In this document: positions 48,174 through 56,539 of the stretch, piece after piece | How positions within the stretch are numbered: the first letter of the stretch is position 1 | Layout of the letters: each line of letters begins with the position of its first letter | Assembly: GCF_900167375.1 (NCBI RefSeq) | Contig: NZ_FUWY01000003.1 | Span: 124,001 to 188,000, forward strand | Length of the DNA: 64,000 nucleotides | Reading direction: 5' to 3' | Source of the DNA: Anaerorhabdus furcosa | Lineage (GTDB): Bacteria; Bacillota_I; Bacilli_A; Erysipelotrichales; Erysipelotrichaceae | Translations under genes and position numbers: made by a program | The notes under the pieces: generated by a model | Told to the model about the DNA's origin: nothing | Seen by the model: the letters and a program-made list of their open reading frames with translations, nothing else | Database searches by the model: none

Positions 48174-48199
48174 TAAAATGGTATCGAAATACCATTTTA
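48174..48199 (-). terminator. Hairpin between the unknown gene and the CpXC gene
   Basis: A perfect 11-bp stem (TAAAATGGTAT with ATACCATTTTA) capped by a TTCG tetraloop on the minus strand; it overlaps the stop codon at 48197. Only a short T run follows, so partial read-through into the CpXC gene is likely. Confidence 0.65.
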
Positions 48200-48898
48200 T
48201 GATTTCTTTCCTTTTTCAATCTCTGGATATTCTTCTAAGATTTCATTCACAAAATCTCTTAGTTTCTCAAACGTCTCATCATTTACATGAACTGAACTAT
48301 TTGCAGAAACAAGTTGTATTTGGTTATTTAATAATACAGGTACAATATCAACTTTTTCATTTTGATGAATTCCAATATCTTTTTCAGGCTCTTTTAATAA
48401 TCTACCTTCAATGAACTTAGAATTATACTCTATAGATTCTACCAAATATCGATAAAATTTTCCATCACTTAAAAAATGTACATTTAATATATCAGGATAA
48501 TGAATATCTCTTTGCATATCTAATTCTTTGATGTGTCGTACTTGTGATAATTCTTGAGAAACATCCTCACTTTCAAATATCGAAGCTGCTTTTACTTGCA
48601 TTTTAAATGTAGGTTGTTCAACAATATCAAATTCATAAGATACTATATCAAACGAACTAAATGTAGCTAAAGGTTCTAGAATATCTAATCCCTTTTCACA
48701 GTTGTCATAAGCATTTCCTATAGCAAGAACTGGGAAAACTAAATTTCCAGCTTTATCAATCATGCAAGTGGTAAGCATAAAACAATCATCAACATTCACA
48801 TCTATCATATCTTTACATTCTTCTGTTAAGTCATCTACTTCAAATATTTGGTATTTGTGATAAAGTTCAGTAAATCTACTTTCTTCTAATATCATCAT
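48197..48898 (-). CDS. Unknown protein paired with the CpXC gene
   Basis: A 233-residue acidic, probably cytosolic protein with no signal peptide or membrane segment. I do not recognise a family. It begins with MMILEESRFTEL; a GGAGG site lies three bases before the first and six before the second of two adjacent ATGs, so the second (48895) may be the true start. Beta-strand-like stretches near 55-75 and 160-215 suggest two globular parts. It is transcribed with the CpXC gene 38 bases downstream, so the two may work together. Confidence 0.55.
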   Translation of the reverse strand: MMILEESRFTELYHKYQIFEVDDLTEECKDMIDVNVDDCFMLTTCMIDKAGNLVFPVLAIGNAYDNCEKGLDILEPLATFSSFDIVSYEFDIVEQPTFKMQVKAASIFESEDVSQELSQVRHIKELDMQRDIHYPDILNVHFLSDGKFYRYLVESIEYNSKFIEGRLLKEPEKDIGIHQNEKVDIVPVLLNNQIQLVSANSSVHVNDETFEKLRDFVNEILEEYPEIEKGKKS

Positions 48899-48991: not shown

Positions 48992-50320
48992 CTACTTCAA
49001 ATTTAGTTTGCCAACTGATTGATTGTTTACACTATCATTAATAATAATTTCCAGTGGTTCCGTCATTTGCATAGTTATCACAACGCTTTGCTCATTGCTC
49101 GATATTAGTTGATACGGAACATCTTCACTTGATAAATTAATTACTTTTAACGTGTTTATATCAATACCAGATTCCATGTCATAAAGAATCACTTGAATAT
49201 ATCCCTCATTATATTCTAAAATTTTAATAGTTGGTGACTTGTCATCAATACTCTCAACAATTAATTCTTTAGTTATGATTTTTCCATTTTCACTCCTTGC
49301 TTCAATTGTATAGAGTCCATTTTTATACAAGATAATTTGTTCACCTGGTACAAATTCACTTGAATAAATACGATTAGCATTTTCATCAATTACAGTCAAT
49401 TCATTAATTAATGAACCTAATTTAGGCTCTATTTCAAAAACTTGATAATTTTCATTCGGATTCACCTTATTTACAGGATGAATATCAAAGTCAGAATTCA
49501 TCAATATGAATGCACTCAATCCTATTCCTGCTGTAGTAAGAAAACTAAATGCAAAATTTCTAAAGAATCGATTTTGAAATGATAATTTATTTAATGATCC
49601 AGCATAGTTATTTGCTAAATTTGCAACATCTTTTGTAGGGTATGCTATTGCCTTTGCAACAATATCATATGAATTAATGATTTGATTTTCACTCATACAA
49701 TTTCTCGCTATTTTACCAAGAATTTTTAAAGAAAAAGGAGTTAATATAAAAATGAATGAACTGGATGATCTTCGAATTTTATCACATTCTAATCTTAAAT
49801 TTTTAATTGCTTCTGCCAACAAACGGAAAACAGTTCTATCAGAAACTTTTAAATATTTAGCGATTTCTTTTACCTTCAGTTTATCTACATATCTCAACAT
49901 TATTACATTTTTAAGATTTGGTTCCAATTGATTTAGTGCCACGGAAACAATGTCTTCATTTTCAAAATCTTGTTTAAAGTATGAATTTGGATCCACTAAA
50001 TCATTTGCCATTTCTTGAATATCAACAGATATAATCTTTTTTGAGTCTTTAAGTAGATCCATCGAGATTGTGTAATTCATTTTATTTAAGTAAGCAACCA
50101 AGAGATTTGGATTCTCTATCTTATCTAGGAAACTATATAATTTTAAATACAATTCTTGAACAACATCTTCCGCAAGAATTTCATCATGGGTGTGTTTTAA
50201 CGCAGTATAAAACTGTATTGACACTGTGTTAAGGTATATTTCTTCAAACGCTTTTTTATCGCCTTGTTTCGCTTTTTCAACTAATTTGCCTAATTCTTTG
50301 TGTGACAATTTCTTTTGCAT
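48992..50320 (-). CDS. ECF-like sigma factor fused to a membrane segment and an outer Ig-like domain
   Basis: A 442-residue protein. Residues about 10-75 are sigma region 2 (EDVVQELYLKLYSFLDKIE), about 115-165 are sigma region 4 with a helix-turn-helix (LKVKEIAKYLKVSDRTVFRLLAE). A linker follows, then one membrane helix near 255-275 (FAFSFLTTAGIGLSAFILM). Residues 280-442 look like one or two beta-sandwich Ig-like units outside the membrane. ECF sigma factors are usually about 170-200 residues and are held by a separate anti-sigma factor. Here sigma and a membrane-bound sensor are one chain. The start at 50320 has an AGGAG site. No anti-sigma gene is adjacent. Confidence 0.78.
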   Translation of the reverse strand: MQKKLSHKELGKLVEKAKQGDKKAFEEIYLNTVSIQFYTALKHTHDEILAEDVVQELYLKLYSFLDKIENPNLLVAYLNKMNYTISMDLLKDSKKIISVDIQEMANDLVDPNSYFKQDFENEDIVSVALNQLEPNLKNVIMLRYVDKLKVKEIAKYLKVSDRTVFRLLAEAIKNLRLECDKIRRSSSSFIFILTPFSLKILGKIARNCMSENQIINSYDIVAKAIAYPTKDVANLANNYAGSLNKLSFQNRFFRNFAFSFLTTAGIGLSAFILMNSDFDIHPVNKVNPNENYQVFEIEPKLGSLINELTVIDENANRIYSSEFVPGEQIILYKNGLYTIEARSENGKIITKELIVESIDDKSPTIKILEYNEGYIQVILYDMESGIDINTLKVINLSSEDVPYQLISSNEQSVVITMQMTEPLEIIINDSVNNQSVGKLNLK

Positions 50321-50515
50321 AATATGCTCCTGTTGAAATATCAATAACCCTTTGAAATAAAAAAAGAAAAACCGACCTGATTCTTACAATTTTTCTTCAA
50401 CTTTTATCATTTAATTGTTAGATTACAAATAGGTCTTTAGCTTAAATCTAGGTTTATGTACTTCCAACTTATTTATAACAAACTTTTCAACATTACGCAA
50501 TGAAAATGGTTTCTA
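50321..50515. other. Intergenic region before the sigma-factor gene
   Basis: AT-rich, no gene. It holds the sigma gene's promoter region and the 3' end of tcdA. No strong terminator was recognised after tcdA. Confidence 0.35.
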
Positions 50516-55514: not shown

Positions 55515-56459
55515 CTATATCACACGAATCAACTCCTTTGAAAATGCAATGATGTTCTCTCTTTCCTCCGGTTTAGATGAGGCAATTAAAACAGTTAGTG
55601 TTGCAAGGGTTGTATTACTAATTCGTTGCTTATTATTAACGATGAGTTGCCTATTCTTCATTAGAAAATAAATAAAGATTGTTGCAGCTATTCTTTTGTT
55701 TCCATCATAGAAACTATGATTTTTAGTGATGAAGTACAGTAAGTTGACCGCTTTATCTTCTAAGGTAGGATAAAGTTCCACTCCTCCAAAACTTTGATAG
55801 ATTTGATTAATACTCGATTGAAAAGATTTATCTCTTTCTTTTCCAAATAAATCTTTTCTACCGTCAAAAGGTGATTGTTCAATAACCTCCATACATTCTT
55901 CGTAGTTCAATGCATAGATACATTCATTTTCTGTATTCTTTTTTTCAAGAAGTGATTGATGATCATAATCATCTAATAACGCTAATCCTTGAGAATAAAG
56001 ATTTAAAACATTAAGCACTTCTGATGCATCAAATCCTTTTACACCCTCCATCATATCGACTTGAATTTTCTGCATTCGCTCTAATTGTTTTAGTCTTTTG
56101 TCGTTATATACTATTCCTTTTAAAGTGTAATCTTTAAGAATTTTTGTTGCCCATTGCCTAAAAAGTATTCCTCTCTTCGATTTTACTCGGTATCCCACTG
56201 AGATAATCATATCTAAATTATAGAAGTCTATATTATAACTTTTATCATCTAAAGCAGTTTGGGCAAATTTTGCCCAAACTGAATTTTTATCTAATTCACC
56301 CTCAGCAAAGATTTTTCTAATATGTTTTCCTATTACACTTCTATCTCTATCAAATAAATCTGCAATTTGTTCCATGCTTAACCATACTGTTTCATTCTCT
56401 AAAGTCACTTTAACTGTAATCTCACCATCTTCAAAAACAACTATATTATTATCTTCCAT
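55515..56459 (-). CDS. RhuM-like domain fused to a Fic/Doc-type domain
   Basis: A 314-residue protein. The N-terminal part (about 1-160) is RhuM-like: VWLSMEQIADLFDRDRSVIGKHI, a KFAQTA segment, and NLDMIISVGYRVKSKRGILFRQWA. The C-terminal part (about 190-310) has the Fic/Doc motif NHSFYDGNKRIAATIF, with His, Asp, Asn and Arg. Doc-type enzymes transfer phosphate or AMP to a target protein. The HxFxDGNKR form is the Doc form, which phosphorylates EF-Tu in Doc. No antitoxin is visible beside it, although RhuM might hold the enzyme in check. The ATG at 56459 has AGGAGG. Confidence 0.85.
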   Translation of the reverse strand: MEDNNIVVFEDGEITVKVTLENETVWLSMEQIADLFDRDRSVIGKHIRKIFAEGELDKNSVWAKFAQTALDDKSYNIDFYNLDMIISVGYRVKSKRGILFRQWATKILKDYTLKGIVYNDKRLKQLERMQKIQVDMMEGVKGFDASEVLNVLNLYSQGLALLDDYDHQSLLEKKNTENECIYALNYEECMEVIEQSPFDGRKDLFGKERDKSFQSSINQIYQSFGGVELYPTLEDKAVNLLYFITKNHSFYDGNKRIAATIFIYFLMKNRQLIVNNKQRISNTTLATLTVLIASSKPEERENIIAFSKELIRVI

Positions 56460-56539
56460 TTTATTCCTCCTACTTGTATTTATGTAGGAAGAAATAGAAA
56501 TCCTAATTTTCTTCAAATAATTGTCTAAAGCAAAGAAAA

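Follow-up and report, generated by a model that had tools for sequence, protein, structure and literature searches.

Sigma factors of the ECF type usually depend on a separate anti-sigma factor, and the locus described here raises the question of how such a factor can be controlled when its sigma domains and a transmembrane sensor are carried by one polypeptide. The gene lies on the minus strand of the window, i.e. the whole stretch of 64,000 nucleotides that was analysed, at 48992..50320, stop codon included. It codes for 442 residues, and its 442 codons are open from the ATG at position 50320 with no stop in frame. A ribosome-binding site, AGGAG (50327..50331, minus strand), can be read directly from the sequence, and an alternative TTG start located 24 nt earlier is less likely than the ATG. 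The neighbouring genes code for a ThiF-type protein, an unclassified 233-aa protein and a CpXC protein, which bears out the preliminary description in its statement that no anti-sigma or protease gene lies alongside; nor was a TonB-type receptor gene or a surface-protein gene found beside the fused sigma gene. The 233-aa protein, which belongs to no Pfam family, is encoded at 48197-48898 on the same (minus) strand, 94 nt downstream of the fused sigma gene, and is followed by the CpXC zinc protein; both are possibly part of one transcript with the sigma gene. In other respects, the window contains a 333-aa ORF (55515-56516, minus strand) that, by eye, resembles a RhuM-type N-terminal part joined to a Fic/Doc-like part (motif HSFYDGNKR).

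The N-terminal part of the protein has the composition of an ECF (group IV) sigma factor, with regions 2 and 4, no region 3, and the RNA-polymerase-binding residues of the sigma domains kept. Region 2 (residues 8-92; 50045..50299, minus strand) is aligned throughout by NCBIfam TIGR02937 and by the SigY model; TIGR02937 matches the protein with 67 bits (E 1.3e-18, cut-off 42.9), and Pfam Sigma70_r2 falls short of its cut-off (16 against 24 bits). Region 4 (residues 125-178; 49787..49948, minus strand) is matched by Pfam Sigma70_r4_2 with 39 bits (E 5e-10, cut-off 25.7). Both domains reach a pLDDT of about 90 in an AlphaFold2 model of the full chain, built from an alignment of 11 related sigma rows, and the best PDB matches of the modelled domains include SigW, AlgU and E. 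coli sigmaE, with E-values down to 7e-7. The recognition helix of the window copy diverges from the form seen in the family.

The sigma domains are followed by a cytoplasmic linker of about 70 residues (179-247; 49580..49786, minus strand), which may act as an inhibitory segment. It is helical in the full-chain model with low confidence (pLDDT about 36-56), its arrangement being undefined (pTM 0.32), and a profile search matched neither a known anti-sigma domain nor any other profile in it. Residues 256-274 (49499..49555, minus strand) form the best 19-residue hydrophobic window of the protein and coincide with a model helix at 248-274. Across 66 fused proteins, the net charge averages +1.4 on the N-terminal side of the transmembrane helix and -2.1 on its C-terminal side, and 58 of the 66 are biased in that sense, so that the tail (residues 275-442; 48995..49498, minus strand) is predicted to lie outside the cell. 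Its delimitation draws on a leave-one-out profile, a single-sequence model and homology to a separate gene product of genus g18. When folded alone from its single sequence, the 168-residue tail is all beta (mean pLDDT 69, with 84-91 in the membrane-proximal half), comprising 14 strands, those of the helix-proximal part included. The fold matches of this model are Ig/FnIII sandwiches, the best with a Z of 6.7, a weak resemblance that may hold at least for the membrane-proximal half. Pfam and PDB profile searches returned no known family for the tail, the best weak PDB match being an adhesin repeat protein. Overall, the layout agrees with the preliminary description, which had proposed N-terminal sigma regions 2 and 4, one membrane helix near 255-275 and some 165 outer residues with beta-sandwich features.

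Judged by sequence, the proposed joining of both functions in one chain is real, and the window protein belongs to a conserved family of one-piece sigma/transmembrane sensor proteins and is not an isolated oddity. Among 145 genomes searched from the same bacterial family as the window, several genera proved to contain fused relatives. The window's own genome encodes, on contig C1, another such fused protein, which is 441 aa long. The existence of full-length homologues in other genera argues that the fusion is more than chance. One 4.3-Mb genome (G127) contains at least 57 verified fused genes, each coding for at least 400 residues (loci L081-L130), and another (G110) gives 26 matches of 324-586 aa, the tail of which is mostly shorter. 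A tail profile trained on 78 fused relatives, the window protein being left out, recognises residues 275-442 with 24.7 bits (E 5.6e-6), compared with 7.3 bits for the best of 200 shuffles. Three tail residues, N334, D359 and P363, are invariant in a 16-row alignment, and all are kept in the window copy. Named plasmid records of Paraclostridium bifermentans contain homologues that match 88-98% of the protein at 25-28% identity, their tails giving E-values between 1e-21 and 1e-26 (A2 profile), and plasmid records of P. sordellii also yield homologues. One P. bifermentans plasmid copy (L237:1614-2977, CP124688.1) is split into two overlapping frames by a frameshift, compared with the near-identical intact L233 and L236. 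Scanning genome contigs with the window protein returned Bacteroidetes sigma domains only, viral contigs contained no homologue, and a literature search turned up no relevant work on fused ECF sigmas from bacteria of the Erysipelotrichia type. Other fused sigmas of 586-674 aa (L030, L035 and L074) carry larger, unrelated outside domains after the helix, so that several different sensor types have become joined to ECF sigmas within this family.

A view of how the chain may be regulated comes from genus g18 (G017, G065 and G093), where the two functions are encoded separately. There, a second gene either overlaps the sigma gene or directly adjoins it; the membrane protein that this second gene encodes starts with about 60-90 residues including a membrane segment and continues with the same sensor domain as the fused tail. 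By analogy with sigma/anti-sigma operons, this second gene most likely encodes an anti-sigma factor. Since the g18 counterpart of the tail is a separate gene, with that likely function, the window chain can be viewed as a sigma factor with its regulator built in, and its 'missing' anti-sigma is probably part of the chain. The preliminary description overlooked that the tail corresponds to a membrane-protein gene of its own in g18, located beside the sigma gene. In the sigma tree, the split g18 sigmas and the fused sigmas of Paraclostridium fall into one group (95/86), which indicates that the joined or split state has changed within the family.

The genes downstream of the fused relatives point to what these factors may control. 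In G127, the downstream product is signal-peptide-like in 51 of 54 same-strand cases, against 36% of the other ORFs at the same loci; 49 of the 54 genes lie no more than 60 nt from the fused sigma gene, and 39 of 43 complete downstream proteins carry a C-terminal membrane anchor. Those sampled have leucine-rich, MucBP, lectin or Listeria-Bacteroides repeats. Sigma similarity and downstream-protein similarity are correlated (Mantel r 0.49, reached in 0 of 999 permutations), as expected for units that are inherited jointly. A secreted-type protein also follows all 23 fused genes of G110 (genus g50) that have a downstream ORF; the gap between the two genes tends to measure 125-414 nt, a layout unlike that of G127. 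On the P. bifermentans plasmids, the downstream gene encodes either a class B sortase or a surface protein with DUF5011, and in the window's genome the second fused copy (L076:1715-13661) precedes a secreted Listeria-Bacteroides-repeat protein of 2209 aa. Upstream of this second copy lies a cluster that includes a pair of GHKL kinases along with a V4R protein and a LytTR response regulator. The fused sigma probably switches on the neighbouring surface-protein gene in the relatives, and G127 would hold a large repertoire of surface proteins that are each switched on their own.

With regard to promoters, an exact TGAAC-N17-CGAC site is present in 33 of the 57 upstream regions of G127, the spacer always measuring 17 bases in a search that allowed 14-19, compared with 0.09 exact sites on average, and 2 at most, in shuffled upstream sequences. 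A trained matrix places a TGAAC-N17-CNNC-TAAT site upstream of 48 of the 57 fused genes, at a threshold reached by 0.09% of shuffled sequences and within an upstream limit of 300 nt; two further sites sit just past this limit. Across the G127 genome, TGAAC-N17-CNNCTAA occurs 64 times, compared with 18 for the reversed control. As these are classic ECF promoter elements, the G127 relatives likely autoregulate. The bases of the -10 element covary with a region 2 column aligned with T84 of the window protein (z 5.5), which is suggestive only, kinship being uncontrolled and other columns equally high. In genus g50, many fused sigma genes (G110 loci L131-L155) have sigma-A-like promoters, and no shared motif was found in the intergenic gaps. 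The window's own genome shows no enrichment of TGAAC-type promoters (2 sites compared with 10 for the control), and no recognisable family promoter precedes the window gene. A candidate TGAAG-N17-GGTC about 80 nt upstream of it is a weak match, and we do not claim it. The regulatory evidence, i.e. promoter and surface-gene linkage, is a property of the relatives, and the window copy is a divergent orphan.

Several known systems resemble this family. IutY of Pseudomonas putida, classified as ECF243, is a sigma/anti-sigma hybrid of cell-surface signalling (PMC5411451, PMC8999054), and this fused protein is cut by Prc and RseP (PMC5411451). It shares with the window protein an N-terminal ECF sigma, a single membrane helix and a C-terminal outside domain in one chain, and regulated intramembrane proteolysis is likely the principle behind both. 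However, IutY requires an outer-membrane receptor and a FecR-type domain, whereas the tail of the window protein is Ig-like and its host looks Gram-positive; Pfam scans of the full window protein and of 19 tails gave no FecR match. ECF48, ECF52 (SCO4117) and ECF53 of Actinobacteria are likewise ECF sigmas fused to a membrane helix and an outside domain, for which autoregulation has been proposed (PMC8999054, PMC5826349), but they harbour an anti-sigma domain of the zinc-finger type, which in ECF52 is accompanied by a carbohydrate-binding module. The HxxxCxxC zinc-binding motif is absent from all 66 proteins of the window family, and the only Cys of the window protein are Cys179 and Cys208. Given the lack of both this motif and a FecR domain, the family, while similar in layout, is set apart from IutY and ECF48/52/53, and the 2021 ECF reclassification may already list it. 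The SigI/RsgI systems of Clostridium thermocellum also comprise many paralogous sigmas with outside sensors, devoted to surface or extracellular machinery, and RseP cuts their membrane part (PMC12203970, PMC4711584). They differ in consisting of two separate proteins, in that sigma-I is not an ECF factor, and in numbering about nine copies compared with about sixty; the window protein is one chain with an ECF region 4, and a Pfam scan found no RsgI domain in it. Also close are the sigma-70 family proteins of P. bifermentans plasmids (such as WP_247014192.1 and WGX77599.1), full-length homologues with the same tail domain; these are annotated only as sigma factors and, unlike the window copy, have a sortase B or DUF5011 surface gene next to them.

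From the computed architecture, predicted topology and tail homology, the ECF-type promoter and surface-gene linkage of the relatives and the presence of RseP, we consider it fairly probable that the window protein is an ECF sigma which carries its own sensor, is kept at the membrane and is released through regulated intramembrane proteolysis. In the resting state, the linker and the helix would keep the sigma domains at the inner membrane face, while the Ig-like tail would sample the outside of the cell. A cell-surface signal, in the relatives probably tied to the next-door surface protein, would change the tail and lead to a cut by an outer protease, followed by a second cut by the intramembrane protease RseP. 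The freed sigma domain could then bind RNA polymerase and start transcription, its target in the relatives being presumably its own operon, including the surface-protein gene. An RseP/S2P homologue is present in the window's genome and, together with the precedent of IutY (PMC5411451), makes release of the window sigma by cleavage plausible.

It is less likely that the sigma acts while tethered, recruiting RNA polymerase to its operon at the membrane so that the surface protein is made and exported where its gene is transcribed; the tail would then only tune the activity through a change of shape, and the chain would stay uncut. The joining of sigma and anchor in more than 60 relatives, the usually secreted downstream product and the lack of an adjoining protease gene would all suit such a mode of action. 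However, the g18 sigma is a separate protein, so that tethering is not essential there, RseP is present in the genome, and the one fused sigma of like layout that has been studied is cut (PMC5411451).

We regard it as rather improbable that the window copy is a decaying orphan with no target operon or useful function left. The missing surface gene alongside, the long branch of this copy in both trees, the absence of the family promoter from its genome and its divergent recognition helix are what decay would predict, but the frame of 442 codons is intact and has a good ribosome site, and the core sigma residues are kept along with the invariant N334, D359 and P363 of the tail. That two genes were joined by a sequencing or assembly error, an idea invited by the two-gene form in g18 and the frameshift-split Paraclostridium copy with near-identical fused counterparts, is effectively refuted by the spread of more than 60 fused relatives over several genera and finished plasmids and by a window frame without a stop.

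Fused sigma/sensor proteins represent a little-studied exception to the sigma/anti-sigma pair, and IutY is the only one that a 2022 review lists as having been tested for activation by proteolysis (PMC8999054). We can tentatively propose, as a possibility rather than an expectation, that the family constitutes an undescribed class in Gram-positive-type bacteria, in which about sixty one-piece surface-signalling sigmas per genome, each with one neighbouring surface protein and a near-common promoter, and possibly membrane-held when active, would switch surface-coat genes one by one. The family offers a two-gene counterpart in a related genus, dozens of natural variants within one genome, a promoter that can be read and a likely target in the adjacent gene, and thereby makes two questions testable, namely, whether a fused sigma works only once it has been cut free, and by what means a bacterium regulates many surface proteins singly.
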